From assembly GCA_945860255.1 (NCBI GenBank), contig CAMAQI010000003.1, positions 1 through 35,210 of the forward strand: a stretch of 35,210 nucleotides of DNA. Reading direction: 5' to 3'. Under the pieces are notes generated by a model, which did no database searches, was not told where the DNA came from, and worked only from the letters and a program-made list of their open reading frames with translations. The DNA is from Methylacidiphilum caldifontis (GTDB lineage Bacteria > Verrucomicrobiota > Verrucomicrobiia > Methylacidiphilales > CAMAQI01). The position numbers and the translations under genes are program-made. Every line of letters starts with the position of its first letter. The first letter of the stretch is position 1. Shown here one piece after another: positions 2,697-22,803 of the stretch.

Positions 2697-3149
2697 GAAT
2701 AAAAGGGAGTCCAAGACGAAGGGAAGTCGTTAAAGTATGGGCTCGCATTATGGTTAAGGGAGGTGACCTCTACTCGTTAATTTCATTTTGGGACAAATAT
2801 TATCATGACACTCGGGCCAATACCTTTCCCTTTGTCATACACAACTCGTTTGGAAAAATTTCGGCTCTTGGCTTCGTACCATTCGATCCGATGCCCGCCC
2901 CTCAGAATCCGTCACTTCCTGCGCACTGCGTTCCTCAATGCCTCCATTTCTCGCAGATACTCCAGATATCTTCCCCTGCAAGTTATTGTTCCATAAATAC
3001 GCTGACCCCGTGCGTTCTTCATTCCTAAAAGCCGCATAAATCAAATCCAAAATTTTATCTTGAGAGTGGCAAAAATCCGCCATTCTTAAGCCGAAAGTTA
3101 AAGAAAAAATGAATATTGATGTGCACGATTTTCTGCTACGGTGAAGTAT

Positions 3150-5063: not shown

Positions 5064-5749
5064 TAGGCACACGAATTTCGTTAGGGAAGAAACATAAGGA
5101 TGAAGGAGAAAAGCCATTCTGGATTTCTTTTTCTGACCTGATGACAGCACTGATGGTCTTATTTTTACTTGTCATGAGTGTTGCACTGCTTTCTGTCACA
5201 AAAACCGTGACAGATGCAGAACGTGAAAAGCTCGAAATGGAGAATGACATCGAATCAGTCATGAATGAAATTGAGCAATCCACAAAAGATTTCCCTGGAA
5301 TAACGATCGACAAAAAACGTGGGGTAATAGACTTCGGCGACAAAGCAAGGTTTGATACTGGCAGTAGTTCCCTAACCGCACAGCAAGGCGAATATCTGAG
5401 AGCGTTTATTCCCGGACTGCTCCAAATAGCCAACGGAATTAAAGGGACAAAGTGGCTTAAGCGATTTGTTGTGGAGGGATTTACCGATGAGCGAGGTGAG
5501 TATTTAATGAATCTCAACCTTAGCCTTCAAAGAAGCCAGCGTGTTATTACGATTGTGCTGGCTCCACCAAGCCCCGGAGCTGTTACTTTTACAACCGAGC
5601 AAATTCAGCAAATAAAAGAGAAGTTTTTGGTGGGAGGCTTTTCTTCAAATTCAGCAAAGAAGTCATATGAAGAAAGTCGTCGCATAGAAATCAGAATTGA
5701 GTGTTACAGTTTGGAAGAAAAGAAGAAAATGGAAGCTGCAAAACAGTAG
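5060..5749 (+). CDS. zorB: ZorB: MotB/OmpA-like stator subunit (Zorya)
   Basis: 'FWISFSDLMTALMVLFLLVMSVALL' single TM with proton-carrying Asp; OmpA-like peptidoglycan-binding C-terminus ('VEGFTDERGEYLMNLNLSLQRSQRV ... EESRRIEIRI'). ATGA overlap with zorA. Confidence 0.9.
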   Translation: MIGTRISLGKKHKDEGEKPFWISFSDLMTALMVLFLLVMSVALLSVTKTVTDAEREKLEMENDIESVMNEIEQSTKDFPGITIDKKRGVIDFGDKARFDTGSSSLTAQQGEYLRAFIPGLLQIANGIKGTKWLKRFVVEGFTDERGEYLMNLNLSLQRSQRVITIVLAPPSPGAVTFTTEQIQQIKEKFLVGGFSSNSAKKSYEESRRIEIRIECYSLEEKKKMEAAKQ

Positions 5750-5754
5750 TAATT

Positions 5755-7770
5755 ATGACAACCGCTGCCGATGAGCTTCAAACAGCACTTCATACCATAG
5801 GCAAAAGATCAATTGGTAGTCGTGCTTTTGTTGATTTGCGGCCCATGTCCAAAACTATTGAGATACTTAGTGCGATAAACGATAGACCAGTTCAAATTAG
5901 TAAACAGCCCATCGAAGAGGCGCTTCACATGTACATGGCCTGTGGGCAAATTGAGACACCAAGACAGGCTAAATATCTCTGTTACGGAATCTGCAGCTCA
6001 ATTGTCCAACACGGAAAAAAAATCAAGCTCATTACAAATCAGGACAAGCTAACAACTTTACTTTCCTACGTTGAAAAATTCACAGACAGACCACAACGAT
6101 TCCAACGCTATTACCGAGGGCTTTTGGATTCCTATTTTCATTTTTCGCTAGAGCACGGCCATGAAAGTAAAGAGAATGGGAGAGAACAACTCAGGCAATT
6201 TTTAGAATCAAAACTATCTTTGATCAATAAGGAGGGGATTAATCCACAGTGGGTTACAGAGCTTAATCGCAATAGCAATCTATTAGGAAAGCGGCCAACT
6301 AAGAAGTATAGCGAAATTTTTGCTGTCGAAGGATCAGATCCATTCATGGACGTATGTGATAAAGTCCAAATACGCGAAACAACATGGCTTCAAAAGGATT
6401 ACATTAATGAAAAGGTTAAAGCCATAGCGGCCATTGATGATCATGGTTTTAAATCAAAGATAACGTATTTACTTGGGTTAATTGAGCAAAACTTAGCATC
6501 ACAAAACACTAATTTAGCCTGTATATTAGACAGATACGCACAATGTTCTGATCCTTCAATCCATACCGATTTACGAGATAAAGCTGTCGGGCTCTGGAAA
6601 AATCCTTGGATTGAGGCCAATAAAGCGCAATGGGGACTGGTTGAAGATACAACAAGAGAAATGGTCGTTGGATGGCTTAAAAAACATCTCATAGGAGCAT
6701 TCTTCGAGTATTTATCGGCAGACGGGTCAAACAACAGTAGACGCGTCAATATGTGGCGTGAGTATCACGCTGAAATTGAAGATATGTATTTTGCGCTGGG
6801 AACAAACGCACAAAAAGACAACTCGCGTAGCATGCAAGACATGAAGCGGAAAATGGTAGGGAGAACATTGACTCTGGAGGGCGTGTCGAATACTAATAAT
6901 GCTTTCATTATGATTTTCCAAAAGCATGTGATCGTCGAATTTGGCGAGCATGGAAACGCGTGCTATATCTATGAAAGAGGAGCATATTTACCATTTAAAT
7001 TGCAAGGCCAGGTAATAGGTGACAGTAGCCAATTAAAAAATGATAGCTCTGCAGCATACGTTAATAAATTAAGGCACCGAGATAAAATAAGCGAAACATG
7101 GGAAGAAACGTTTAAAGATTATCTTAAAAGCCTTGGCATTAGAATTAAGGCGCACACCCCAAGAGCTGCGAATCCACCGATACATCGACCTATCCCGCGC
7201 CCTCCAGTTGAAGATAATCCGGGATTGCGTTTACCTGCGAATAAAAAGGCTGAAATTAATGTTGCAGATGAACAACTTATCGCATCACTACCGTTAAGAA
7301 AAGAATTTCGCCTCAAACTAGAGGAATTAGTTAGTGGAACTGGTGGACGGATCAAGAGAAAATTGAATAGTGCGAATGGAGTTTGGTTTTATCCCAAAAG
7401 CCTATTGACTCATGAACAAAAACGACAAATTGAAGAACTTGGATTCCAATGGAGTTCTATGGTGCAAGGATTTTCAAAGGAAGATTTTAACGATGAGATT
7501 ACTATTAAAATCGAAAATAAACAGTTAGATGAAGAGGGCGGATTTGACTGCAATGTACTAAAAGATGTGCAGCTGCCACCGCATATCAAAAACCCATTAA
7601 AAGATTTGTTTAAAAGCCATGCCCTGACAATAAATGACCTACGCCACAAAGGTGGATCGCTATGGGTAAGTGGCAATGAAACGAATATCCCACAACAAGT
7701 TAAGCATGAGTTGGAGCGATTGGGATTCCGCTGGTCAGCTAAACGAGAAGAATTTTATTTGCCTGTATGA
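5755..7770 (+). CDS. zorC: ZorC: EH-signature-domain type protein of type I Zorya
   Basis: Position between zorB and zorD; 'WLKKHLIGAFFEYLSADGSNNSRRVNMWREYHAEIEDMYFALG' resembles the EH-signature region. ATG at 5755, 5 nt after the zorB stop; ATGA overlap with zorD. The 5701 start in the ORF track lies inside zorB. Confidence 0.8.
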   Translation: MTTAADELQTALHTIGKRSIGSRAFVDLRPMSKTIEILSAINDRPVQISKQPIEEALHMYMACGQIETPRQAKYLCYGICSSIVQHGKKIKLITNQDKLTTLLSYVEKFTDRPQRFQRYYRGLLDSYFHFSLEHGHESKENGREQLRQFLESKLSLINKEGINPQWVTELNRNSNLLGKRPTKKYSEIFAVEGSDPFMDVCDKVQIRETTWLQKDYINEKVKAIAAIDDHGFKSKITYLLGLIEQNLASQNTNLACILDRYAQCSDPSIHTDLRDKAVGLWKNPWIEANKAQWGLVEDTTREMVVGWLKKHLIGAFFEYLSADGSNNSRRVNMWREYHAEIEDMYFALGTNAQKDNSRSMQDMKRKMVGRTLTLEGVSNTNNAFIMIFQKHVIVEFGEHGNACYIYERGAYLPFKLQGQVIGDSSQLKNDSSAAYVNKLRHRDKISETWEETFKDYLKSLGIRIKAHTPRAANPPIHRPIPRPPVEDNPGLRLPANKKAEINVADEQLIASLPLRKEFRLKLEELVSGTGGRIKRKLNSANGVWFYPKSLLTHEQKRQIEELGFQWSSMVQGFSKEDFNDEITIKIENKQLDEEGGFDCNVLKDVQLPPHIKNPLKDLFKSHALTINDLRHKGGSLWVSGNETNIPQQVKHELERLGFRWSAKREEFYLPV

Positions 7771-10700
7771 GCATTTTTAAAACCAAACCAGAGTCTGCTG
7801 CCTATTTTCTAAATTTCGAAGAAGGAGGCGTTTCATGGAGCACATTTCAATCGGATAAGGCCGTGAAATGTGAATCCAAACCCAACCCCATGCTGGAAAT
7901 TTTAAGGGATGAAGGTTTAGTGGAAAACTCAGGCAGTGGTTACAAAGCTTCTTGGCAAAGCGTCTATACGATTTTACAGCATGATGATGTGAATCCTGGA
8001 GCGCTTGGAATTCCGAGTGTTAGAGATATTGCGCCGACTATAGAAAGCCTAGGCACATTAACAGACAAAGATTTTGGCATATCCATTTCTGATTGGCGAG
8101 AGATTAACGGCTCAACACTAGGAATACTCCAACCGACGGGGGCGGCATTCAAAAAAGGTGAGTGGTGGTTACTTCCTGAAGAAAGTTGGAAGCTAAGAAG
8201 TAAAATACTTGAATTTTGGAAAAGACCAGAAGAACAGAGGACGCACGAATTAAATCGGCAGAACTGGAGTCAAATCCGGCAGATGGCGCTTGCAGCAAAA
8301 GCTGAAATGACAGGCTTTCTTTATAAGTGCATCGTTATTACTCCAGATAAGCTAAAGATTGATCTAAGACGCGGAGATGCTTTAGGCACCAAAGTGATTG
8401 AAGTCATTCCGAGCTTTAACGAATGTCCTGAGAATTGGCTTGATGCGTTTGATAAACAAAACAGCGTACTCGACGAATATGTTTTACCAACTAAAGAGGG
8501 AGTTGTTCAAATTCTCTTAAAGCCAGAGGTAAAATCCGTTCTTAAACAGATAAAGCAGATGCCAGGGCGTAGAGCAGCCAGTCAACGCGCCGAGGCATTT
8601 GTCATAAATCCATTTGCCGCTCTTGGTGAGGATGCAATCAATACTATCGATATTGAAGAGTTCGAACAGGCACGAGCAGCAGCAGGGATGCAATCGGATC
8701 GTTTTTTTGCCTTTGTTGGACACGAAGAAAATTCAAGCACGCTAAAAATCGGCTTGAGGGTTTTGAGGGGAGGGGTGGTCGGAGAAGAAGAGCGTTACGA
8801 GTTTGCTAGTGACGAGCTTTTAAGCAGGTTTATTCAAAGAGCTGAAAAGAATCTGGCCGATGGAATGCAACTGATCGCTTGGGAAGATTTCGAGTTTGAG
8901 ATTTTGGGTGATACGCGCAATGAACTAGAAACAATTAAAGAAGCGCAGAAGTTAAGACAAAATGGAAAGAATATTACGAAGGAATCGGTTTTTAATTTAA
9001 CAAAATACGGCGCTAGAATAATACATATTGGAGAGCAGCCTATAATTTCTTCGCCGCATATACCAAAGCCAGAGAGTGTAAAAATAAGTATAGACATTTA
9101 TGAGTCAACCTCTAACGGTGCCGTTAATACAAGCACTGAAATAAACACTGACGATCTTAAGAATGCAATTGATAAGGCAATAGCGAACGGGGACGAGACG
9201 GTTACAACGTCATGGGGCGAAGTAATATCTATTAGCAAAGCCCAAACACTATTGGTTAAAACAAAGGGGACAGCGCCGGTTCCAACCCCACCGCCACCAC
9301 CAAAACCCATTATTCCTACGCTTGTTATTGGGCAAAACGTAAATGAATTAGAATATTTAGAGAAACGAAAAGAGCTTCTTACTGCAGATAAGAAGAAATT
9401 AGTGCTGCCTACCTCACTGCGGCCTGAGTGTAAGCTACTGGATCACCAGCTTGCGGGAGTAGCTCAAATGCAGCACCTCTATCAACTTGGGCCGCAACAC
9501 GCGCGAGGCGTCATATTGGCAGATGACATGGGTCTTGGAAAAACACTCCAAACGCTGACTTTTATTTCTAGCGTCTTTGAACTCAATAAAGATGCGTCGC
9601 CTGCTTTAATCGTAGCACCTGTATCACTGTTAGAAAACTGGCAGGATGAGATTGAGAAATTTTTTATTAAAGGATCTTTGCCATATTTAACAGCGTATGG
9701 ACAAAACTTATCCAAGTTAAGGGTTCACAAAAGTAGTATTGACGATCAATTGGTGCAGATGGGGCTAATAAAGTTTTTGAAAGATAACTGGATAGGAAGT
9801 GCGAAAATAGTCCTCACCACTTATGAAACGTTAAGGGACTTGGAGTTCTCATTTGCGGCTGAGAAGTGGTCAGTGATGGTTTGCGACGAGGCCCAAAAAA
9901 TTAAAAATCCCAATGCTCTTGTTACAAGGGCCGCGCTAAAACAAAATGTGACGTTCAAAATTGCCTGTACTGGCACGCCAGTTGAAAACAGCTTGGCCGA
10001 TTTATGGTGTCTGTTTGATTTCATCCAGTCTGGATATTTAGGAACGTTAAAAGAATTTGCAAATACCTACAGACGACCAATTGAGGCTGAGTTATCAAAA
10101 GACCAAGAAAAAATTAAAAGAGTAAATGAGCTCAGATCTAAAATTGAACCCCAAATTATCAGAAGAATGAAGCATGATGTTTGCAAGGATTTGCCAATAA
10201 AAATATTTGATAAAAAATGCAAAAACATACCCATGTCGAAATATCAAATAGATCTTTATGTGAAGGCGATAAAGTCATACGATAGAAGAGATGAAGCTGG
10301 TTTTGTTACCCAGTATGATAGCAAATTGAAATTGATTCAGTATCTTCGAGCCGTAAGCATTGATCCAAGGCCGATAGGCACGGAAATAAACTTAACCTTA
10401 AGTATTAAGGATTACTGCAAGCAGACGCCAAAAATGGGATGGCTTCTTGAAACATTGGATTCAGTTAAGAAAAAGAGTCAAAAGGCCATAGTTTTTTGTG
10501 AATTTCGTTCAATTCAAATAGTGTTAAGACACTATATTCACGAAAAATTTGGATTTTCGCCGGACATTATAAACGGCGATACTGAAACATCGACAAGCTC
10601 AGATGACAGTAGAAAAAAACGGATTGATGTTTTCCAACAAAGGCCAGGATTTGGCGTTATAGTTCTAAGTCCTATAGCAGTAGGGTTTGGAGTGAACATT

Positions 10701-11396
10701 CAGGAAGCAAATCACGTCATTCATTATACGAGGCATTGGAATCCAGCCAAAGAAGATCAAGCCACAGATAGAGCTTATCGAATTGGGCAAAAGCAAGACG
10801 TTTATGTTTACACTCCCGTGATGACAGCCGACTTCACGACTTTTGAGCAAAAGCTAGATGCTTTACTGCAATTTAAGCGGGAATTATCTAAGGACATGTT
10901 AAATGGTTGTGGCGATGTTGATCTTGGAGGATTTATTATAAAAGGAATCGCACCAAGAGGGATTGTAAATAATGAAAATGAATATTTTAATCCCGCATCA
11001 CTTCCACGAGTAAAACCATTATATTTCGAAGGATTGATTGCTGCATTGTGGAGAGCAAAAGGTTACGTTTCATATTTGACACCGCAGCATGGTGACTATG
11101 GCGTTGATGTCGTCGCTATTAATGGAAATAGGGGCGCTCTTATTCAATGCAAAACCTCAAAGAAGATAAATAATCGTGAAACATGGGATGCGATAAAGGA
11201 AGTATATACCGGAAAATCGCATTACGAACGAGTGCATAGTGGAGTAACCTTTGAGCTTTTCTGTGTGACAAATAACTATTTTAACGAAAATGCAATGCAC
11301 CACGCAAAACTTAATAATGTCACATTAATAGAGAGACAGATTTTGGAAAACGAATTAAAATTGCATCCAATTTTAGTCGATGACATACCATCATAA
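7767..11396 (+). CDS. zorD: ZorD: SNF2-family helicase with C-terminal Mrr-like PD-(D/E)XK nuclease domain
   Basis: Walker A 'ADDMGLGKTLQTLTFIS', Walker B 'VMVCDEAQKIKNP', 'TGTPVENSLADLWCLFDF', C-lobe 'HWNPAKEDQATDRAYRIGQKQDVYVYTPV'; C-terminal 'GLIAALWRAKGYVSYLTPQHGDYGVDVVAINGNRGALIQCKTSKK' = D...QxK nuclease motif. Confidence 0.92.
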   Translation: MSIFKTKPESAAYFLNFEEGGVSWSTFQSDKAVKCESKPNPMLEILRDEGLVENSGSGYKASWQSVYTILQHDDVNPGALGIPSVRDIAPTIESLGTLTDKDFGISISDWREINGSTLGILQPTGAAFKKGEWWLLPEESWKLRSKILEFWKRPEEQRTHELNRQNWSQIRQMALAAKAEMTGFLYKCIVITPDKLKIDLRRGDALGTKVIEVIPSFNECPENWLDAFDKQNSVLDEYVLPTKEGVVQILLKPEVKSVLKQIKQMPGRRAASQRAEAFVINPFAALGEDAINTIDIEEFEQARAAAGMQSDRFFAFVGHEENSSTLKIGLRVLRGGVVGEEERYEFASDELLSRFIQRAEKNLADGMQLIAWEDFEFEILGDTRNELETIKEAQKLRQNGKNITKESVFNLTKYGARIIHIGEQPIISSPHIPKPESVKISIDIYESTSNGAVNTSTEINTDDLKNAIDKAIANGDETVTTSWGEVISISKAQTLLVKTKGTAPVPTPPPPPKPIIPTLVIGQNVNELEYLEKRKELLTADKKKLVLPTSLRPECKLLDHQLAGVAQMQHLYQLGPQHARGVILADDMGLGKTLQTLTFISSVFELNKDASPALIVAPVSLLENWQDEIEKFFIKGSLPYLTAYGQNLSKLRVHKSSIDDQLVQMGLIKFLKDNWIGSAKIVLTTYETLRDLEFSFAAEKWSVMVCDEAQKIKNPNALVTRAALKQNVTFKIACTGTPVENSLADLWCLFDFIQSGYLGTLKEFANTYRRPIEAELSKDQEKIKRVNELRSKIEPQIIRRMKHDVCKDLPIKIFDKKCKNIPMSKYQIDLYVKAIKSYDRRDEAGFVTQYDSKLKLIQYLRAVSIDPRPIGTEINLTLSIKDYCKQTPKMGWLLETLDSVKKKSQKAIVFCEFRSIQIVLRHYIHEKFGFSPDIINGDTETSTSSDDSRKKRIDVFQQRPGFGVIVLSPIAVGFGVNIQEANHVIHYTRHWNPAKEDQATDRAYRIGQKQDVYVYTPVMTADFTTFEQKLDALLQFKRELSKDMLNGCGDVDLGGFIIKGIAPRGIVNNENEYFNPASLPRVKPLYFEGLIAALWRAKGYVSYLTPQHGDYGVDVVAINGNRGALIQCKTSKKINNRETWDAIKEVYTGKSHYERVHSGVTFELFCVTNNYFNENAMHHAKLNNVTLIERQILENELKLHPILVDDIPS

Positions 11397-11751: not shown

Positions 11752-12411
11752 ATGGCTAATCTATTTCCTAAAGAATCAAATATTGTTCCAATCAAAATTA
11801 TCCTCTGTAAGGTCATCACGGTGATCGTCATTATTTTAGGGATTACTTACTATTTCACTCCAAAGTACACCCGAGTCGGTTATAAGCCTACTCAACCGGT
11901 GGCTTTTGATCACTCTCTTCACGCCGGACAACTCGGATTGGATTGTCGTTATTGTCATAGCTTTGGAACCGTAAGCTCTCATTCTAATGTTCCGACGACT
12001 CAAACCTGTATGAATTGTCACCGTCAGGTGAAATCAAACAGTCCTAAACTCGCCCCACTTCGTGAAAGCTGGGAGACCGGAAAGCCGATGAAATGGATCA
12101 AAATCCATCAAGCACCTGATTATGTCTATTTCAATCACTCCGCTCACTTAAATCGTGGAATTAGCTGCGCAAGCTGTCACGGGAAGGTCAATGAGATGGA
12201 GGTTGTTTGGCATGATAAGCCACACAGTATGGGTTGGTGTTTAGAGTGTCATCGGAATCCTGAATTTCATATTCGACCACAAGAAGAGGTCTTTAATTTA
12301 GATTGGAAAGCCGGAGACGGCAGTACCAAAGCCCAAGTTGCACAAGGCCGTGAACTTGTCAAAAAGTGGGATGTCAATCCTCCTCAAAACTGTCAAGCCT
12401 GTCACCGCTAA
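11752..12411 (+). CDS. actA: Alternative Complex III subunit A, pentaheme cytochrome c
   Basis: N-terminal TM and five CXXCH motifs (CRYCH, CMNCH, CASCH, CLECH, CQACH); first gene of an act cluster. Confidence 0.92.
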   Translation: MANLFPKESNIVPIKIILCKVITVIVIILGITYYFTPKYTRVGYKPTQPVAFDHSLHAGQLGLDCRYCHSFGTVSSHSNVPTTQTCMNCHRQVKSNSPKLAPLRESWETGKPMKWIKIHQAPDYVYFNHSAHLNRGISCASCHGKVNEMEVVWHDKPHSMGWCLECHRNPEFHIRPQEEVFNLDWKAGDGSTKAQVAQGRELVKKWDVNPPQNCQACHR

Positions 12412-12435
12412 ATCAATTTAAAGAGGTTCCTGATC

Positions 12436-15400
12436 ATGAAACGCAAGTGGCAACATCCAGAAAACACACAGAACGGCAAGCAATACTGGCGCAGCTTAGA
12501 TGAGCTCGCCGGAACGCCTGCGTTTAGCAAATGGCTCCAACGCGAATTTCCCGCAGGGGCCGATGAACTCGAGCTCGATGCCGTCAGCCGCCGTAGTTTT
12601 CTCCGTCTCATGGGAGGATCGCTCGCCCTTGCCGGACTCGGAATGACCGGCTGCCGTCGTCCCGAAGGTTACATTGTCCCTTTCACCAACTCTCCAGAAT
12701 GGATGGTTCCTGGAAAAACAACGCTTTACTCAACCGCAATGCCTCGCCGTCGCGGTGCCGTTTCTTTACATGCCACGACTTATGAAGGTCGCCCGACAAA
12801 GCTAGATGGAAATCCGTTACTAAACAACGGTCTCTCGGATTCCCATGTTCAAGCAGCGATTCTTGATCTTTATGACCCAGACCGCACTCGTTCCTTTAAA
12901 AAAGGGACCAAGAAAGTTGATCTCGCTGCTTTTGCTGCTTTTATTGAAGAGGTTTCGAAAAACTACGCAGCAACTCAAGGAGAAGGACTCGCTTTCCTCA
13001 CGGAATCATCGACTTCGCCAACGCTCCAACGTCTCCGTGCCGAATTTAAATCCAAATTCCCTAAGGCGCTTATCTCAGCCTACGAAGCGATTTCGACCGA
13101 TTCAGAGCTGAAAGCGACGGAGATTGCCTTTGGTCAACGTCTTCAACTGCTTCCTCAGTTTGATAAAGCCGATGTCATCCTTTCTCTCGACTGCGATTTT
13201 TGTGCAACCGATGAAGGGGGAATTGGGGCGATTAAAGGATTTGCCTCCCGTCGTCGTGTCCGTAAATCGGGCGACACCATGAATCGTCTTTATGTCGCTG
13301 AAAGCCGAATCACCAGCACCGGAGGAATGGCCGACCATCGGCTCCGTCTCAAAGCATCACAACAGCCAGCTTTCCTCGCTTTAGTGGCGAAAGAGATGTC
13401 CGCTAACGGAGCTGGAGCTGATCTCACGACGCTTGCAAATAACGTTTCTGGATCAGTCACCTTCACAGAGGTTCAACTCCGTTGGGCGCGTGAAACTGCG
13501 ATTGATTTAATTAAGTACGGGAAGGGAATGGTCGTTGTCGGAAGTCAACAACCGGTTGCCGTTCATTTGCTGGCGATTGCAATCAATCAAGCTTTAGGGG
13601 CTTATCGCAACGAAGTGATTCGAGTCACGGCTCCTGTTCAAATTCCAGCCGCTCCTTTTTCTGAGCTCGTCACGGCAGTCAAAGCTGGATCGGTCAAAAC
13701 GCTTTTCATTATTGGTGGAAACCCGGTTTACAATACCCCGGCGGATATTGCCTGGGCTGATTTACAAAAATCAGTTGAGCAAGTGGTTCGTGTCGGTTCT
13801 TATGAAGATGAGACGACTTCCGTTAAATCGGATTGGACGATCCCTCTCGCTCATTTCCTTGAAACTTGGGGAGATGCTCGTGCGGTTGATGGAACCTACC
13901 TTGCCCTCCAGCCGATGATTCTCCCGCTTTTCGGTGCGGTTTCAGAGCTTCAAATTTTTGCCGCGCTTTTGGGTGAAAAAGAGTGTCTCATGCCCCTCCC
14001 GGTCGTTGCCCCTGCGAAAGTCGCAACTCCGACGGTCCCTGGTCAGGCGAGCAATCTTCCGATCCCTCCCGAGTTGACGGTGGTTCAAAAAACCTTTGTC
14101 GAAGTCACGAAAGCAAACAACTGGAATAAGCTCCTTCATGACGGTTTCTGGGCCGGTTCTGCTTTTGCAAATGTTGCGGTCGCTTATCGCTCCGCAGCCG
14201 TCGTCGAGTCGGTGAAGCAAAATTTCCCAAGCTATCAAGAAGGGCTTGAAGTCACATTCTTTGCTTGTCCTAAAATTGATGACGGTCGCTATGCGAACAA
14301 CGGATGGCTCCAAGAGTTGCCCGATGTTCAATCGAAGTTGACTTGGGATAACGCTGCTTACGTCAGCTATACCACCGCTCGCAAACTGGGATTAAGAATT
14401 GCAGAGATCAAACCGATCACAATTGCTTTAGACCCCGCCGAGGTCAAACGTCGCGAAGAGAATCCGACTTTGGAACTTGATGGCGATGATGCCGATGTCG
14501 TGATCATTGAGGTTGAGGGACGCTCGATCGAGATTCCGGTTTATGTGATGCCTGGTCAAGCCGATGATTCGATTGCGATTGCGCTCGGATACGGAAGATC
14601 CTTTAACGGTTATGTCGGAAACAAAGTCGGGTCAAATGCCTTTGCGATTCGAACCTCCACAAATTTATTTGTCGCTCAGAACGTTAAAATCAGTCGTGCG
14701 AACAAAGATTTTAGACTCGCGCAAACCCAACACCATTTCAGCATGGAAGGGCGTGCGATTGTTCGTGAGTTGACCTTGGAAGAGTTTAATAAGAACGCTG
14801 GCATCGTGAAGATCATGGGCATCGATGGTCACCAACCTGCAGATATGGCCTCTCTCTATGAGACTCAAATGGGTACGGGACATCGTCCGCAGCTCACCGA
14901 TCCTCATCAATGGGGAATGGTCATTGATCTAACAACCTGCGTCGGCTGTAACGCTTGCGTCGTTGCTTGTCAAAGTGAGAACAACATTCCGATCGTCGGA
15001 AAGAGTCAAGTCGGACGCGGTCGGTCGATGCATTGGATGCGAATCGATCGTTACTACTCTGAATCCCCTACCGATCCACAGATGGCGGTTCAACCGATGC
15101 TCTGTCAGCATTGCGAAAATGCGCCGTGCGAAACGGTTTGTCCAGTGAATGCAACCGTTCACAGTGAGGATGGATTAAATGTGATGGCTTATAACCGTTG
15201 TATCGGAACTCGATATTGCGCCAATAACTGTCCTTATAAAGTCCGTCGTTTTAATTTTTTCGATTACAATAAACGTAAAGTCAACAAGTCACATAAGTTG
15301 CTTGGATTTGAGGTCGGCAATCTTTACTTTGGACCGTTCGGCGAGCAAAATGATGACAAGGTGGCGGAGATGCAAAAGAATCCGAATGTCACGGTTCGTA

Positions 15401-15819
15401 TGCGCGGTGTCATGGAGAAGTGTACTTTTTGTATCCAACGCGTTGAAGAGGCGAAGATCAATGCTCTCCGACTTTCGAAAAATACGGAAAAGCAGAAAGT
15501 GGCAACCGACTCCTTTAAATCGGCCTGTCAACAAGCTTGTCCTGCAGAGGCGATTGTTTTCGGAGATATTGCAAATCCAGAAAGTGCCGTGACCAAGCTT
15601 CGTGCATTGGAGCAAAATTACGGCGTTCTTTCCTATCTTGGAACTCGGCCTCGTGTGACTTACTTGGCACGCGTTCGAAATCCAAATCCGTTACTCCCCG
15701 ATGACTATGAAAAAGTTGGGCTCAAGAGTGATTGGGATAAACAAAGTCACCTCGGCGGACATGGAGATGGCCATGGCGAGGAACACGGAGCTCATAAAAG
15801 TGAGTCCGGACACCACTAA
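12436..15819 (+). CDS. actB: Alternative Complex III subunit B, molybdopterin-oxidoreductase-like / iron-sulfur fusion with Tat signal
   Basis: Tat motif 'SRRSFLRLMGGSLALAGLGMTGC'; ferredoxin-like clusters 'CVGCNACVVACQ', 'CQHCENAPCETVCP', 'CIGTRYCANNCPYK', 'CTFCIQR...ACQQACP'; 1127 aa. Confidence 0.94.
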   Translation: MKRKWQHPENTQNGKQYWRSLDELAGTPAFSKWLQREFPAGADELELDAVSRRSFLRLMGGSLALAGLGMTGCRRPEGYIVPFTNSPEWMVPGKTTLYSTAMPRRRGAVSLHATTYEGRPTKLDGNPLLNNGLSDSHVQAAILDLYDPDRTRSFKKGTKKVDLAAFAAFIEEVSKNYAATQGEGLAFLTESSTSPTLQRLRAEFKSKFPKALISAYEAISTDSELKATEIAFGQRLQLLPQFDKADVILSLDCDFCATDEGGIGAIKGFASRRRVRKSGDTMNRLYVAESRITSTGGMADHRLRLKASQQPAFLALVAKEMSANGAGADLTTLANNVSGSVTFTEVQLRWARETAIDLIKYGKGMVVVGSQQPVAVHLLAIAINQALGAYRNEVIRVTAPVQIPAAPFSELVTAVKAGSVKTLFIIGGNPVYNTPADIAWADLQKSVEQVVRVGSYEDETTSVKSDWTIPLAHFLETWGDARAVDGTYLALQPMILPLFGAVSELQIFAALLGEKECLMPLPVVAPAKVATPTVPGQASNLPIPPELTVVQKTFVEVTKANNWNKLLHDGFWAGSAFANVAVAYRSAAVVESVKQNFPSYQEGLEVTFFACPKIDDGRYANNGWLQELPDVQSKLTWDNAAYVSYTTARKLGLRIAEIKPITIALDPAEVKRREENPTLELDGDDADVVIIEVEGRSIEIPVYVMPGQADDSIAIALGYGRSFNGYVGNKVGSNAFAIRTSTNLFVAQNVKISRANKDFRLAQTQHHFSMEGRAIVRELTLEEFNKNAGIVKIMGIDGHQPADMASLYETQMGTGHRPQLTDPHQWGMVIDLTTCVGCNACVVACQSENNIPIVGKSQVGRGRSMHWMRIDRYYSESPTDPQMAVQPMLCQHCENAPCETVCPVNATVHSEDGLNVMAYNRCIGTRYCANNCPYKVRRFNFFDYNKRKVNKSHKLLGFEVGNLYFGPFGEQNDDKVAEMQKNPNVTVRMRGVMEKCTFCIQRVEEAKINALRLSKNTEKQKVATDSFKSACQQACPAEAIVFGDIANPESAVTKLRALEQNYGVLSYLGTRPRVTYLARVRNPNPLLPDDYEKVGLKSDWDKQSHLGGHGDGHGEEHGAHKSESGHH

Positions 15820-15838
15820 AGCACAAGGGTAAACAATT

Positions 15839-17278
15839 ATGGCGCATGGCACGACATCAGTGAACGCGAATAGCCCCGACTACATCGCCGCGGCGAAGCA
15901 GGTCGAACGTCCTCCTCTCGTAGGGAATGGTCGTGGCTTTCATTGGATCACCGAAAAAATTTGTTCAATCATCGAGGGGGATACTCCTCGTTGGTGGTGG
16001 ATCGCTTTTTTCATCACGGGAGCTATTTCACTCCTCGTTCCGATTAGTTTGATTTATCTTGTCTCCACTGGAATTGGAACTTGGGGGTTAAATCATCCCG
16101 TCGGTTGGGCTTGGGATATTACGAACTTCGTTTTTTGGATCGGTATTGGACACGCTGGAACGTTGATTTCTGCGATTCTCTTTTTAACTCGTCAAAAATG
16201 GCGTACCTCCATTAATCGTGCCGCTGAAGCGATGACTCTTTTTGCGGTGGTCTGTGCTGGTATCTTTCCGGCCTTTCACGTTGGACGGGTCTGGTTTGCC
16301 TGGTTTTTAGCTCCCGTTCCTCAAGCGAATGCGATTTGGCCGAACTTCCGAAGTCCGTTGCTCTGGGACGTTTTTGCGGTCTCGACCTACTTCACGGTTT
16401 CAGTTCTTTTCTGGTACACTGGTTTGATTCCTGATTTCGCAACCTTACGGGATCGTGAAGTCAAGGTTTGGAAAAAGAAGCTTTATCATATTCTCTCCTT
16501 CGGCTGGCGCTCCTCCAATCGTCAGTGGAAGCATTATGAAATGGCTTATCTTTGTCTCGCCGGTTTAAGCACTCCGTTGGTGCTTTCGGTTCACTCGATC
16601 GTTTCCTTTGACTTTGCGACTTCTGTCATTCCTGGTTGGCATACGACGATTTTCCCTCCTTACTTTGTGGCAGGAGCGATCTTCGGAGGATTTGCGATGG
16701 TGTTGACGGTGATGCTTCCATTCCGAGCGATTTTCGGATTAGAGGATTTGATCACGGAAAAGCATATCGACAATATGTGTAAGATCATTTTGCTGACGGG
16801 ATCGATCGTTGGTTATGCCTATTTAATGGAACTTTTCATTGCGTGGTATAGTGGAAATCCGTACGAGAAATATGCATTCTGGAATCGTGCGTTAGGACCT
16901 TATTGGTGGTCTTATTGGGGGATGATGATTTGTAACGTCCTGATTCCTCAGCTTTTCTGGGTGAACAAATTCCGTAAAAATGTAGTCGCGGTTTGGATTA
17001 TCGTTTGGGGACCGAATATCGGGATGTGGTACGAGCGTTTCGTGATCATCGTGACCTCGATTCATCGCGATTTCCTTCCCTCCTCATGGGGAATGTTTAA
17101 GCCTGAATTGAATGACATCACTCTCTTTGTCGGAACTTGTGGGTTATTTACTTGGTTGTTTTTGGTCTTTATCCGATTCCTCCCAGTGATTGCGATTGCT
17201 GAAGTGAAAGGGGTGATTCCTGAAGCGGATCCCCACTTCCATGGAAAAGAGGATCCTAAGGGAGGTCATCATGTCTAA
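15839..17278 (+). CDS. actC: Alternative Complex III subunit C, NrfD/PsrC-like quinol-oxidising membrane subunit
   Basis: Polytopic; '[53 protein letters not shown]' typical NrfD/ActC core. Confidence 0.94.
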
Positions 17279-17858
17279 TGCACCTGTTTATGGCGTGGGA
17301 GCTGAATTTAAATCGGCGACGGAACTTTATCATGCGGCGGAGGTCGTACGGGATAAAGGATTCAAATGGTGGGATACCTATTCTCCTTATCCGATCCACG
17401 GAATGGAAATTGCCATGGGGACTGGGAAATCATGGGTCTCGACCTTTGTTCTTTGCGGAGGAATGATGGGGTTTACACTCGGAATTTCTTTAGAGTCATT
17501 GACATCAATTCCTCGTCCTGAGTTCCTTAAAGATATTCAAAGCGGTTGGTTGCTCGATCTTTTTTATCCATTGATCGTTCATGGAAAACCGTATTGGGCC
17601 TTACCTGCTTTTTTTCCAGTGATGTTTGAGCTGACCATTTTGCTCTCGGCTTTTGGAGCAATTCTCGGAATGTTGATTTGCAATATCTTACCTCGATTGA
17701 ACCATCCGGTTTTTAATTGGGAGCTTTTCTGCAAAAGGGCGAGCGATGACAGCTTCTTTTTGATCATTGAAGCGGCCGATCCTCTTTATGCAGAAGAAGA
17801 GACGAAGAAGCTATTGGAAGAACTGGGTGGAACCCAAATTACGGTGATTTCAAAATGA
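17271..17858 (+). CDS. actD: Alternative Complex III subunit D (DUF3341-like membrane protein)
   Basis: '[41 protein letters not shown]' N-terminus and two TMs; ATG at 17271 overlaps the actC end. The upstream 17241 start is unlikely. Confidence 0.92.
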
Positions 17859-18472
17859 GATACTACCTTTTAGGATTATTTGTAGTGGTCACAGCGATTC
17901 TCTGTGTCGTCGGCTTTCGCGGTCAAATGACCGAGCGAACACCGATCGAGCTCTTTGATGACATGGATCGCCAAGCTAAAGTAAAATACCAAAAGCCCAG
18001 TGAGTTCTTTGCGGATGGACGAGCCTCTCGGATGCCGGTTACGGGAACGATTCCTGCAACCATTCCGATTGATGATGAATATTTCGTGACCGGAGCGATT
18101 GGAAATCAGTGGGGAGATGGAATGCCGAAAAGCGTAACGGTTTCCACCAAGTTTATGGCTGCGGGGAAAGAGCGTTATGAGATTAACTGTCGGGTCTGTC
18201 ACGGATCGACAGGAATGGGCAACGGGATTGTGACTCAATACGGATTAGCAGGAGTCGCTAACTTGCTTGATGAGCGTATCCGAACGATGTCGGATGGAGA
18301 GCTCTTTAATACGATTACCAAGGGTAAAGGGCAAATGATGGGCTACGGGGCAAATATCACCCCTCAGGATCGATGGGCGATTGTCGCTTATATGCGGGCA
18401 CTTCAACGAAGCCAAAAAGCTTCATTAAGTGACGTTCCAGAAACTGAACGTGGAAAATTGCTGAAAAAATAA
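17855..18472 (+). CDS. actE: Alternative Complex III subunit E, monoheme cytochrome c
   Basis: Single CXXCH ('CRVCHGSTGMGNGI'), 'YGANITPQDRWAIVAYMRALQRS'; overlaps actD stop. Confidence 0.92.
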   Translation: MRYYLLGLFVVVTAILCVVGFRGQMTERTPIELFDDMDRQAKVKYQKPSEFFADGRASRMPVTGTIPATIPIDDEYFVTGAIGNQWGDGMPKSVTVSTKFMAAGKERYEINCRVCHGSTGMGNGIVTQYGLAGVANLLDERIRTMSDGELFNTITKGKGQMMGYGANITPQDRWAIVAYMRALQRSQKASLSDVPETERGKLLKK

Positions 18473-18485
18473 CAGGTCAAAAGTC

Positions 18486-19712
18486 ATGGAAGCAAAAGTT
18501 CAAGATCGAGTCAGTTTAAAGAAAGAGGACCTAGGGGGGACGATTACCGCCCTTTGGGTCATTGGGATTATCGGATTGATTGGTGCGGCAATTGGCTGTC
18601 ATCTGAATCCGAAGGCCTTTAATTTTTCGTGGTTATTTTCTTTTATGGTATTTTACACGATGGCAGCCGGTTGCTTTTTCTGGCTCATCGTTCAACATGC
18701 GACAAATTCCGGATGGAATACCTTGGTTCGCCGTCAATTGGAGAACGTTGTCGGGGTATTTCCTTATTTGGCCTTATTCTTTATTCCGTTATTGCCAATT
18801 GTCGGTGGAGATCGTCTTCACTCGCTCTGGCCTTGGTTAGATCCTGCGGTGACGGACCATGATCCTCTTTATCATGCAAAGGCTGGTTATTTTACGATGG
18901 GTTTTGATTGGCCCGCCTTTTTTTATGTACGCTTGGCCTTTTACTTTACGACTTTTGTATTAGTCGGGGCTTGGTTTCGTCGTCGATCGCTACAACAAGA
19001 TAGCGATGGTCATCCGATTCACTCGGTAGTGATGAGAAAGACTTCTTATGGCGTGATCGCCCTCTTTGCGATCAGCATAAGTTTCTCGGCAATCGATTGG
19101 ATGATGAGTATGGATTATCGTTGGTATTCAACGATGTGGGGAGTTTATATTTTTGCAGGCTCTGCAGGTTCCGCAATGGCGCTCTTGGCGATCATTCTTC
19201 ATGCTTTGAAAGCAAAGGGATACCTTCAACTCGTCACTGAGGAGCATTTTCATATTGTTGGTAAGTTGATGTTTGCCTTCACGATTTTCTGGTCCTACAT
19301 CGCGTTCAGTCAATTCATGTTGATCTGGTATGCAAATATTCCGGAAGAGACGATTTTTTATAAAATTCGTAATACGCCCGAATGGTTTCCATTAAGTATT
19401 GGATTGCTCTTGGGACATTTTATTATTCCGTTTCTTTGGTTACTCGGACAGGCGGCAAAGAAAACCCCATGGCGCCTCATCGCAGGGGCTTCGTGGATGA
19501 TTTTCATTCATATGTGTGATCTTTATTGGATTATCATGCCCGTTTATCAAAAGAGTCCGATTCCAGATTGGAAACATTTCCTTCTCAATGGAAGTTGCCT
19601 TTTGGGGATAGGTTGCATTATTGCGGCGGTTTTCTTGAGAAATCTGACAAAAGCAAACCTCTATCCTGTGAAAGATCCTCGTCTGGACGAGTCGATTCAC
19701 TTAAAGAATTAA
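18486..19712 (+). CDS. actF: Alternative Complex III subunit F, polytopic membrane protein
   Basis: About 10 TM ActF-type protein following actE: 'SISFSAIDWMMSMDYRWYSTMWGVYIFAGSAGSAMALLAIILHALKAKGYL'. Confidence 0.92.
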   Translation: MEAKVQDRVSLKKEDLGGTITALWVIGIIGLIGAAIGCHLNPKAFNFSWLFSFMVFYTMAAGCFFWLIVQHATNSGWNTLVRRQLENVVGVFPYLALFFIPLLPIVGGDRLHSLWPWLDPAVTDHDPLYHAKAGYFTMGFDWPAFFYVRLAFYFTTFVLVGAWFRRRSLQQDSDGHPIHSVVMRKTSYGVIALFAISISFSAIDWMMSMDYRWYSTMWGVYIFAGSAGSAMALLAIILHALKAKGYLQLVTEEHFHIVGKLMFAFTIFWSYIAFSQFMLIWYANIPEETIFYKIRNTPEWFPLSIGLLLGHFIIPFLWLLGQAAKKTPWRLIAGASWMIFIHMCDLYWIIMPVYQKSPIPDWKHFLLNGSCLLGIGCIIAAVFLRNLTKANLYPVKDPRLDESIHLKN

Positions 19713-19721
19713 GGAAAATTT

Positions 19722-20054
19722 ATGACAGATACCCATGACTCATCAGAATCGAAAGGGGGCTTCGGCTCTTTTTTAAAGATCTCCTTAGGGATTGCTTTTT
19801 TTGCTTTCGTGACTGGATCGATTCTTTGTGCTTATCGTTTGGAGAATAAGACCTACGATCAAACGCGTGCGATTGAGCGGACAAAAAAATTAAATGAGCT
19901 GCGTACTAAAGAGGCAGCGATTTTGGATTCCTACGCTGTTTTGGATGAGGCAAAAGGGATTTATCAAATTCCGATTGCAAGATCGATGGAGCTTGAGATT
20001 GAGGCGCTGAAGGACAAGCCTCTTCGTACAGTGGGAGTGATCCCTGTTAAATAA
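19722..20054 (+). CDS. Small single-TM protein associated with ACIII/oxidase operons
   Basis: 110 aa with one N-terminal TM; 'LDSYAVLDEAKGIYQIPIARSMELEIE' resembles the 'YGWVD...G..RIPI.RAMEL' motif remembered from small proteins of such respiratory clusters. Lies tightly between actF and the ccoN-like gene. Confidence 0.8.
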   Translation: MTDTHDSSESKGGFGSFLKISLGIAFFAFVTGSILCAYRLENKTYDQTRAIERTKKLNELRTKEAAILDSYAVLDEAKGIYQIPIARSMELEIEALKDKPLRTVGVIPVK

Positions 20055-20063
20055 AGGTTTTAT

Positions 20064-21539
20064 ATGAATGGCTCAAAAGATGTACAGTTAGAGGGGTATG
20101 GCGATGAGAATTTAGACCGTTCTTTGCAGGGACCGTTAAGTCTTCTTTTTGTTTGCTCTGCCTTATGGTTGGTCGTCTCCAGTCTTTTAGGAGCAGTCGC
20201 TTTTTGGCAGCTTAAATTTCCTGGATTAATTGATTTTAAAGCTGGGATTCAGACTCCTTATGTCGGATGGTTTTTTGATTTCATTCATCAGGCCTTGAAT
20301 TATGGACGTGCCGTTGCGGCGACGAAGAGCGTGATGATTTACGGGTGGTTGTTGCAAGGATTCCTTGGGGTGGCGATTTGGCTCACGGGACGTTTGACAA
20401 AGAAGATGATTTGTAAAACAGGAAACTATTTTTTACTCGGGGCCATTGCGCTTTGGAATATCGGAGTTCTTGTTGGGTTAATGGGAGTTTTCTCAGGGGA
20501 AGCGAGTGGGTTTTCCGGATTTGATTTTCCGAAATATGCCGCAGCAATTCTCTTTACTGCTTACGCTTTTATCGGTTTAGGGATGGGAATGCGATTTGCG
20601 AAGAAGAGTTGTTCGGTACCGACGCCATCAGAATGGTATTTGATCGGGGCAATCTTCTGGTTTCCTTGGTTTTTCGGGGTCGCCTACTATTTTGTTTTTT
20701 GTAAAGTCGTTTTTGGGGTGATGCCTGCACTCGTCCATGCGTGGTATATCGGGGGACTTGAAGTGTTGGTGTTAGGATCTTTAGCGATATCGATTCTTTA
20801 CTATTTAGTCCCTTCGATTTTGGGGTTGGCGTTAAATCGAGTTCATTCTGCGAAAAGTGCGTTTTGGTTTTTTGCCTTTTTAGGAGCTTGGTCAGGGGTT
20901 CGACATTTGGTTGGCGGACCGCTTCCGGCATGGATGATTAGCTCAAGTGTTGTTGCGGGGGTATTGCTTTTGATTCCAGGAACGATCATCGCCAATAATC
21001 AAATGGTTCCGCTTTGGTCAAACTGGTGCAAGGTTAAGTCGACGCCCGTTCTCTGGTATTTGGCGACCGGCGGGGTTTCCCTTTTAGTTTGGATTTCGCT
21101 TGAGGCCATGATGTCGTTACGAGGAGTAAGTGCGGCGCTTCGATTCAGCTATTTTGAAATGGGAGTTTCAGCGGTTTTTGAATATGCCTTTTTATCGATG
21201 GTTTTATTCGGATCGATCTATGCGATTCTTCCGACGCTGACTGGAAAAGAACTACCATGCTGTGTGAAGTGCTGTTCCAAGTGTCAATTTTGGTGGGGCT
21301 TTTGTGGAGTGATTACTTTTTTTACGGGAACATTTTTTGCTGGGACCTTTATGGGATTGGGAATTAACTTCGCTCCGATGGCTTTTGTCGCAACAACGAA
21401 TTTAGCAAGTCCCTTCTTTTGGCTCTCAGTGGCAGGAGGGATCATGGTTCTTCTTGCGAATTTAATCTTCGTCAAAAACGTAGTAGCAACGGTGTTGTCT
21501 GCTTGTTGTGAATCGAATAAGGAAGGATGTTGCTCATGA
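20064..21539 (+). CDS. CcoN-like (cbb3 oxidase subunit I-like) membrane protein apparently lacking heme-copper ligands
   Basis: Order N-O-P and alignable landmarks ('ALVHAWYIGGLEVLVLGSLAISILYYLVP', 'SGVRHLVGGPLPAWMISSSVVAGVLLLIPGTIIANNQ'), but the canonical WWYGHN, GPHHL and GHVHSGALG motifs are replaced. Only four His in 491 aa. Confidence 0.8.
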   Translation: MNGSKDVQLEGYGDENLDRSLQGPLSLLFVCSALWLVVSSLLGAVAFWQLKFPGLIDFKAGIQTPYVGWFFDFIHQALNYGRAVAATKSVMIYGWLLQGFLGVAIWLTGRLTKKMICKTGNYFLLGAIALWNIGVLVGLMGVFSGEASGFSGFDFPKYAAAILFTAYAFIGLGMGMRFAKKSCSVPTPSEWYLIGAIFWFPWFFGVAYYFVFCKVVFGVMPALVHAWYIGGLEVLVLGSLAISILYYLVPSILGLALNRVHSAKSAFWFFAFLGAWSGVRHLVGGPLPAWMISSSVVAGVLLLIPGTIIANNQMVPLWSNWCKVKSTPVLWYLATGGVSLLVWISLEAMMSLRGVSAALRFSYFEMGVSAVFEYAFLSMVLFGSIYAILPTLTGKELPCCVKCCSKCQFWWGFCGVITFFTGTFFAGTFMGLGINFAPMAFVATTNLASPFFWLSVAGGIMVLLANLIFVKNVVATVLSACCESNKEGCCS

Positions 21540-22189
21540 ATGGTTACGGACGTCTTTTTGTCGGAATCTTGTTTGCCTTTGTTTTCTCTTGGGCGGCGTT
21601 GATTTTAGTTCCTTTAAATCAGGTGGGAAACTTAATGCCTTTGGAGGATCAAACCAGTGGGGATCTGAACCCACCCGCGTTGAGTGGTTTAGCGAAACGA
21701 GGCTCTCAAGTCTATGCGGCTAATGGATGTGCCAGTTGCCATACGCAGCAGGTTCGCTCGGAGAGCGGCGGTTCGGATATTGCGCGTCAATGGGGAGCTC
21801 GTCAAACGGTGGCTCGCGATTATTTATATCATTCGAATCCGAATTTGGGTTCAATGCGCTTAGGGCCGGATCTTGCAAATTTGGGAGTCGAGCGCCCTGA
21901 TTTGAATGTCAATGCAGGGCCGAAGAAAAAATATGATGCAGCGGGGCTTCACCAACTTTTTTATGCCCCTCGATCGATCAAGGGATCAAGCCATCCGAGT
22001 TATTCCTTTTTATATGAGAAACGGGAAATTAAGGGAGCCAATGCAGAGGTCTCTTTGATTCTTCCTGTCGGATTTGAAACAGAAGAGGGGAAAGAGGTTG
22101 TTCCTTCCGAAGATGCGAAAGCGTTGGTCGCTTATCTTCTCTCTTTAAATCGTATGTATGCGCTTCCTGAAGCGCCGGTGAAACCTTAA
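21536..22189 (+). CDS. ccoO: CcoO-like monoheme cytochrome c
   Basis: 'YAANGCASCHTQQVRSESGGSDIARQWGARQTVARDYLYHSNPNLGSMRLGPDLANLG'; ATG at 21536 overlaps the ccoN-like stop (ATGA). Confidence 0.85.
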   Translation: MNGYGRLFVGILFAFVFSWAALILVPLNQVGNLMPLEDQTSGDLNPPALSGLAKRGSQVYAANGCASCHTQQVRSESGGSDIARQWGARQTVARDYLYHSNPNLGSMRLGPDLANLGVERPDLNVNAGPKKKYDAAGLHQLFYAPRSIKGSSHPSYSFLYEKREIKGANAEVSLILPVGFETEEGKEVVPSEDAKALVAYLLSLNRMYALPEAPVKP

Positions 22190-22203
22190 AGAGGAACGGG
22201 TGT

Positions 22204-22803
22204 ATGTCTGATCATTCTTCAAATCAATCGAACGAAAATTCTCATCAAGAATCGATGCTTCCTCAGTGGATGTATTGGGTTTTTGCAGCCCTTCTTATTT
22301 GGGGAGGGGCTTATTTAATGCGTTATTCCGGAGGGTTCAGCGGTGAGGTTTATGATGAATCGACGGTGACTTATGGACCGGTAAAAGGGGGAGCGGCGGC
22401 GGTCGAAGATCCTAAGGTTTTAGGGGCACGGGTTTATAAAGCGAATTGCGCACAGTGTCATCAATTGACAGGACTCGGCGTTGAGGGGCAGTATCCTCCG
22501 TTGGCTGGTTCGGAATTTGTATTAGGCAGTGAGGCTCATGTGATCCGTATTCTGCTTCATGGTTTAGTTGGCCCTATTACGGTGAACGGAAAACCTTACA
22601 ATGGGAATATGGCCCCTTGGAAAGATGTTTTGGATGACAAAAAAATCTCTCAAGTGCTCACTTATATTCGATCGGATTGGGGAAATAATGCCTCGGCGAT
22701 TACTCCAGAGATGGTTGCGGCAGTTCGCAAAGAAGAGGCAGCGCGTTCGGCCTCTTGGACTGAAAAAGAGCTTGAAGCGGCTCCTAAGGTTCTTCCGAAA
22801 TAG
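22204..22803 (+). CDS. CcoP-like membrane-anchored monoheme cytochrome c
   Basis: N-terminal TM, single CXXCH 'KANCAQCHQLTGLGVEGQYPPLAGSEFV', distal Met in 'YNGNMAPWKD'. Confidence 0.82.
   Translation: MSDHSSNQSNENSHQESMLPQWMYWVFAALLIWGGAYLMRYSGGFSGEVYDESTVTYGPVKGGAAAVEDPKVLGARVYKANCAQCHQLTGLGVEGQYPPLAGSEFVLGSEAHVIRILLHGLVGPITVNGKPYNGNMAPWKDVLDDKKISQVLTYIRSDWGNNASAITPEMVAAVRKEEAARSASWTEKELEAAPKVLPK

Follow-up and report, generated by a model that had tools for sequence, protein, structure and literature searches.

A CcoN-like subunit with most of its metal ligands replaced in the alternative complex III operon of Verrucomicrobiae

The alternative complex III (ACIII) of Flavobacterium johnsoniae is said to have been presented by Sun et al. 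in 2018 as a supercomplex with an aa3-type oxidase, reportedly without any CcoNOP-like module. The later account of the ACIII-aa3 supercomplex likewise describes it without such a module between ACIII and the oxidase (PMC8552683). In verrucomicrobial methanotrophs, ACIII genes have been reported to lie directly adjacent to those of a cbb3-type oxidase (PMC8498564), and the genome paper of Methylacidiphilum kamchatkense Kam1 makes the same statement and ties this oxidase to a high O2 affinity (PMC6688271). No prior report of a ligand-less CcoN or of an ACIII-linked pseudo-oxidase was found in the open-licence literature.

An ACIII operon with a ccoN-ccoO-ccoP module

The window analysed here, which is the whole stretch of 35,210 nucleotides, comes from a 244-contig assembly of an aquatic bacterium that is not itself a methanotroph but belongs to the same order as the methanotroph family. 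Among the genomes examined, the particulate methane/ammonia monooxygenase subunit A was confined to those of family f7. Positions 11752 to 22803 of the forward strand form a single tight operon with the gene order actA-actB-actC-actD-actE-actF, an ORF for a 110-amino-acid membrane protein, and genes for CcoN-like, CcoO-like and CcoP-like proteins, as follows:

11752-12411, forward strand: ActA-like multiheme cytochrome c of ACIII, the first gene of the operon and conserved (Pfam Cytochrome_C7, E 3e-13; QrcA-like, 89 bits)
12436-15819, forward strand: ActB, molybdopterin-oxidoreductase-like and Fe-S subunit (Fer4_7, 1.1e-15; QrcC-like, 191 bits; TAT-variant MoCo domain TIGR04519 above its cut-off)
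15839-17278, forward strand: ActC, NrfD-like membrane subunit (NrfD PF03916, 2.7e-20)
17241-17858, forward strand: ActD (PF11821, 4.2e-55)
17855-18472, forward strand: ActE-like monoheme cytochrome c (Cytochrome_CBB3, 1.4e-14)
18486-19712, forward strand: ActF-like membrane subunit, without Pfam match and named from its length, its operon position and its conservation there
19722-20054, forward strand: small membrane ORF of 110 amino acids between actF and ccoN, without family match but at the same place in most homologous operons
20064-21539, forward strand: ligand-less CcoN-like subunit (family searches, alignments, AlphaFold and Foldseek)
21527-22189, forward strand: CcoO-like membrane monoheme cytochrome c with CXXCH present and the distal axial Met changed to His (FixO PF02433, 1.6e-11)
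22204-22803, forward strand: CcoP-like membrane cytochrome c with one heme motif (Cytochrom_C, 4.8e-11; FixP_N, 1.8e-05)

The actA-actF set is thus present in order and includes the ActD family protein, ActF being assigned by position only. The product of the 110-amino-acid ORF is possibly an unrecognised subunit of ACIII or of CcoNOP. Directly upstream of the ACIII operon, positions 3141-11396 of the forward strand encode a type I Zorya system for defence against phages with all its components, ZorA (638 bits), ZorB, ZorC with the EH signature, and ZorD, an SNF2 helicase with an Mrr nuclease (1262 bits).

Fold and metal ligands of the CcoN-like protein

The ORF at 20064-21539 is intact and encodes 491 amino acids. 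Its product is a COX1-family protein (PF00115 in Pfam, 81.9 bits against a cut-off of 34.8), and its score with the CcoN equivalog TIGR00780 (61.7 bits) lies far below the cut-off of 583. An AlphaFold model of the protein (pLDDT 81.5, pTM 0.85) was compared to known structures using Foldseek, and the top seven PDB matches were all CcoN chains, the best being 3mk7_A (E 3.4e-17, TM 0.84/0.89, rmsd 2.2 A, 18% identity). Both the family match and the predicted fold bear out the CcoN landmarks that the initial annotation had recognised in this gene.

As Foldseek returned no residue list, the mapping of the ligands rests on sequence alignments. The positions, numbered according to Pseudomonas stutzeri CcoN, were read from an alignment to PDB CcoN chains and from an alignment of 127 sequences, both anchored by conserved neighbours (W227, the G279-L282 region, P286, P288 and P390). 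The following codons of the window were found at these positions:

20322-20324, forward strand: T87, at the position of the TM2 heme b ligand H60
20751-20753, forward strand: G230, at the position of the CuB ligand His207
20883-20885, forward strand: G274, at the position of the active-site Tyr251
20901-20906, forward strand: R280-H281, at the CuB ligands His257-His258, H281 being the sole ligand left
21165-21173, forward strand: V368 and A370, at heme b His347 and heme b3 His349

A histidine therefore occupies one of the six ligand positions (H281), and the active-site tyrosine of TM7 is replaced (G274). The initial annotation had described the metal site as apparently erased and had named an alignment to CcoN structures as the check; the description holds for five of the six histidines and for the tyrosine, but the histidine of the RHL motif aligns with the second CuB ligand. 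Its count of only four histidines in the 491 amino acids was correct (positions 75, 225, 261 and 281). Alignments and the predicted structure together confirm that the protein has retained the fold of CcoN and that its metal site is gone, and there is good support for its having lost the chemistry of an oxidase.

Two other genomes from this genus show the same ligand-less pattern (93% and 81% identity), and the dN/dS values of the CcoN-like gene within the genus are 0.081 and 0.092. A frameshift and an assembly or sequencing error are ruled out by these three genomes together with the dN/dS values. The intact ORF, the conservation of the operon and the low dN/dS support the earlier view of a functional gene rather than one in decay, and show it to be kept by selection.

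Distribution and recurrence of ligand loss

A profile of twelve relatives was searched against 287 genomes of the class Verrucomicrobiae (E <= 1e-30). It matched in 226 of them, a tally that can include genuine CcoN, and ActD was present in 239 of the 287; outside the class, within the phylum, the profile gave weaker matches only. The loci around the gene were then read in 60 of the matched class genomes and in those from the order, and the order Act(A-F)-sORF-CcoN-CcoO-CcoP was held in every locus with enough flank. The co-occurrence of ligand-less CcoN with actABCDEF, which had been proposed as a check, is positive across the class.

The ligand histidines were counted in 123 ACIII-type CcoN proteins, which were sampled by profile score and taxonomic spread, so that the fractions are not population estimates. 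All six are present in 35 proteins, five in 2, three in 2, two in 11, one in 35 and none in 38, and 86 of the 123 have three or fewer. As read from these residues, ligand loss is a recurrent class-wide transition, in which complete, partial and ligand-less orthologues share one operon position.

Other degenerate CcoN-like genes were seen away from ACIII. The one at L049 (genome G007 of family f4, without ActD) is short (362 amino acids) and very degenerate, has CcoO-like and CcoP-like neighbours and is found near heme biosynthesis-like genes. A second CcoN-like protein without most ligands is encoded at L050:11135-13259 and L051:6286-8343, both of the same genus, and on contig C189 of the window's own genome; it is accompanied by an intact CcoO-like gene and is divergent from the genuine ccoNO fusion.

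The complete ligand set is the ancestral state, as follows from genuine CcoN and the complete forms within the superfamily. The main tree was a mixture-model tree of 43 CcoN sequences from which the motif columns had been left out, and it was relied on because a quick 127-row tree carried long-branch warnings. On the 43-row tree, the label complete or incomplete required 5 changes (5-7 over bootstraps) and a single origin was recovered in 0 of 200 bootstrap trees, while the tree of the linked Act subunits (ActB/C/D/F) required 6 changes. A single ancient loss of the ligands is ruled out by both the CcoN and the Act-subunit trees; in each of the trees, the deep branching of the lineage of the window is uncertain. 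The losses occurred in place, as pairs of related proteins show. L086, without ligands, is 59% identical to L085, which is complete, and the two are also paired in the ActB/C/D/F tree. L015, which reads YHVYYHH at the seven positions and has three of the six histidines, H207 among them, is 55% identical to the complete L011, and L063 and L069 each miss one histidine.

The seven active-site columns, invariant in the complete forms, are variable in the ligand-less set (p = 0.0008 compared to random invariant columns), where P53, G94, P286 and P288 are still invariant. The conserved residues of the ligand-less set are Gly, Pro and aromatic residues, one Arg (R82) and one His (Gln in the window), and conservation of 80% or more is not seen for Asp, Glu or Lys at any position of this set. 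Within the genus of the window, the dN/dS values are 0.08-0.09 for CcoN, 0.07-0.08 for CcoO and 0.04 for CcoP, compared to about 0.03 for ActB/ActC.

The ACIII-linked CcoN of M. kamchatkense Kam1 (G026, L041) reads SESSHFV at the seven positions and thus has one of the six histidines, and the same residues are found in the ACIII-linked CcoN of G025 and G024, taken as strains V4 and SolV. No genuine CcoN above 46 bits was detected in thirteen methanotroph genomes. Another cbb3 oxidase elsewhere in these genomes was considered and rejected, the COX1 matches of 473-534 amino acids being read as NorB-like. In these genomes, the ACIII-linked locus therefore encodes no cbb3 oxidase of known chemistry.

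Cytochrome partners, neighbouring oxidases and possible role

Canonical CcoP carries two heme motifs. The CcoP of the window has one heme site, CAQCH, and the heme c site of its CcoO is CASCH. The CXXCH motif of CcoO is kept in all of the 84 ligand-less or partial loci checked, and that of CcoP in 84 of the 86 loci with a readable CcoP; blanks for CcoO or CcoP are loci cut by contig or sequence ends, or an unreadable CcoP. As read from an alignment, all 37 complete-ligand rows have the distal axial Met of CcoO; in L050 and L051, which are among these rows, the gene is a second CcoO near genuine CcoNO. It is kept in 61 of the 84 operons with a CcoN that is not complete and replaced in 22 of them, by Cys in 17, by His in 3 including the window, by Lys in 1 and by Ala in 1. 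The replacement, His in the window's genus and Cys in several families, is limited to operons with an incomplete CcoN. The heme potential would be lower after such a replacement, in which case CcoO may not conduct electrons through to a high-potential acceptor.

Genes for CoxA/CoxB of an aa3-type oxidase adjoin 38 of the 64 not-complete loci, and in the methanotrophs they lie directly downstream of ccoP. No aa3 genes were found within about 11 kb of about ten ligand-less operons, and a direct hand-over of electrons to aa3 is therefore not universal. All of the 18 ligand-less genomes tested encode one or more further COX1-family proteins; the window's genome has CoxA on contig C54 and pieces of genuine CcoNO on contigs C79 and C189. 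G068, which has a single COX1-family protein, has the complete-ligand form. These observations fit a scenario in which loss of the site becomes tolerable when the chemistry is taken over by another oxidase. A strict link between ligand loss and an adjacent aa3 was rejected, as complete forms (G004, G009, G038 and G040) also adjoin CoxA and some ligand-less ones do not.

The reading that we prefer, with a probability only a little better than even, is that a former C-type oxidase has become a non-catalytic membrane scaffold for the CcoO and CcoP hemes, which would serve as an electron outlet of ACIII. A C-type (cbb3-like) module ccoN-ccoO-ccoP would have been permanently incorporated into the ACIII operon of Verrucomicrobiae, and the catalytic subunit would then have lost heme b, heme b3 and CuB in many lineages, including that of the window. 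CcoN would have been kept as the membrane scaffold that holds CcoO and CcoP, with their c-hemes retained. Electrons would enter from ACIII, passing from menaquinol to ActB, ActA and ActE, and the c-hemes of CcoO and CcoP would extend the ActA/ActE wire so that it reaches a genuine oxidase, in many cases the aa3 encoded alongside, or some other acceptor in the periplasm. From synteny we infer that the CcoNOP module and ACIII are physically associated in a supercomplex, in which the module would conduct electrons while the task of CcoN would be structural. In the lineages where the CcoO Met is replaced by Cys or His, the window's included, the outlet may be a low-potential one.

A scaffold, a quinone or electron relay and proton handling had all been put forward in the initial annotation. 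The scaffold is favoured here because CXXCH is kept in CcoO and CcoP and the ligand positions are variable. A less likely idea is that the same module does not lead to oxygen: once the oxidase site was lost, CcoO and CcoP would have become a branching or low-potential route from ACIII to acceptors other than oxygen, or would buffer electrons, a role suggested for F. johnsoniae ActE. The axial Met, present in 37 of 37 complete-ligand rows and changed to Cys or His in 20 of the 84 others, would agree with it, as would the ligand-less operons without linked aa3 genes and the finding that ActE of F. johnsoniae is dispensable for aa3 activity yet aids growth (PMC8552683). However, the Met is kept in 61 of the 84 not-complete operons, and aa3 genes adjoin 38 of the 64 not-complete loci.

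A proton or ion channel, or a pump part added to ACIII, is improbable, as Asp, Glu and Lys stay below 80% conservation at every position of the ligand-less proteins and the redox sites needed for redox-driven pumping are lost, even if the protein has the HCO fold, with proton paths in its ancestor, and the energy coupling of ACIII is debated (PMC8498564). We give equally little credence to a protein that still binds heme or quinone via other, lineage-specific ligands. Some groups keep two or three histidines (e.g. AHAHDNF and HNSQRYH), and H225 of the window sits five residues before the lost CuB histidine, but no other histidine is conserved across the ligand-less set and the four found in the window's genus all lie away from the heme sites of TM2 and TM10. 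A slowly decaying relic would be in line with the recurrence of ligand loss and with the faster evolution of the CcoN-like gene (dN/dS 0.08-0.09 against about 0.03 for ActB/ActC). This last explanation is very improbable and largely refuted by the frames, intact in at least 85 ligand-less loci with one in-frame stop in a complete-ligand form, by purifying selection and by the deeply conserved operon position.

Taken across the class, the non-catalytic scaffold would be the outcome of several events: it seems reasonably probable that the terminal oxidase of the ACIII operon was repeatedly, independently and in place converted into a non-catalytic c-heme module of ACIII in Verrucomicrobiae, and that the annotated cbb3 of the methanotrophs and their relatives is an electron-transfer scaffold. 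The finding corrects the published annotation of the methanotroph locus, which had been read as a cbb3 terminal oxidase and taken to imply a high affinity for O2 (PMC6688271, PMC8498564), and genes annotated ccoN, ccoO and ccoP in Verrucomicrobiota are no proof of microaerobic respiration. The locus clearly illustrates how a catalytic subunit of respiration has turned into a pseudoenzyme. Since complete, partial and ligand-less orthologues share its operon position, it can be tested in which order the ligands were lost and what became of the electron flow.

Compared to CcoN of P. stutzeri (3mk7), the window's protein has the same fold (TM 0.84/0.89), helix landmarks and genetic partners CcoO and CcoP, whereas five of the six ligand histidines, the tyrosine and the canonical Glu region are lost, CcoP has a single heme motif and the genes are encoded in an ACIII operon. 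The complete-ligand ACIII-linked CcoNOP modules (L010-L014, L058-L085 and others) are orthologous and have the same operon position and partners, but unlike the window's protein their CcoN keeps all six histidines and the tyrosine and may still be an O2 reductase. In such complete forms (e.g. L010, L012, L016 and L058), Gln mostly takes the place of the Glu found in the canonical active centre (FEGP) and a pair of additional histidines (NHH) is present, which makes them a distinct C-type subgroup. With the ACIII-aa3 of F. johnsoniae and the ACIII-caa3 of R. marinus, the locus shares an ACIII operon that has genes of an A-type oxidase, the electron acceptor, close by or downstream (PMC8552683), but no CcoNOP-like module is described between ACIII and the oxidase in those systems. 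The 'cbb3-type' oxidase of verrucomicrobial methanotrophs is the same locus, described in the literature as a terminal oxidase whereas its sequence has one of the six histidines (PMC8498564, PMC6688271). The fused cbb3 of Nitrospina gracilis also has unusual substitutions in the active site of CcoN, but there the surroundings of CuB are altered and the His ligands are kept, whereas those of the window are gone (PMC3578206).
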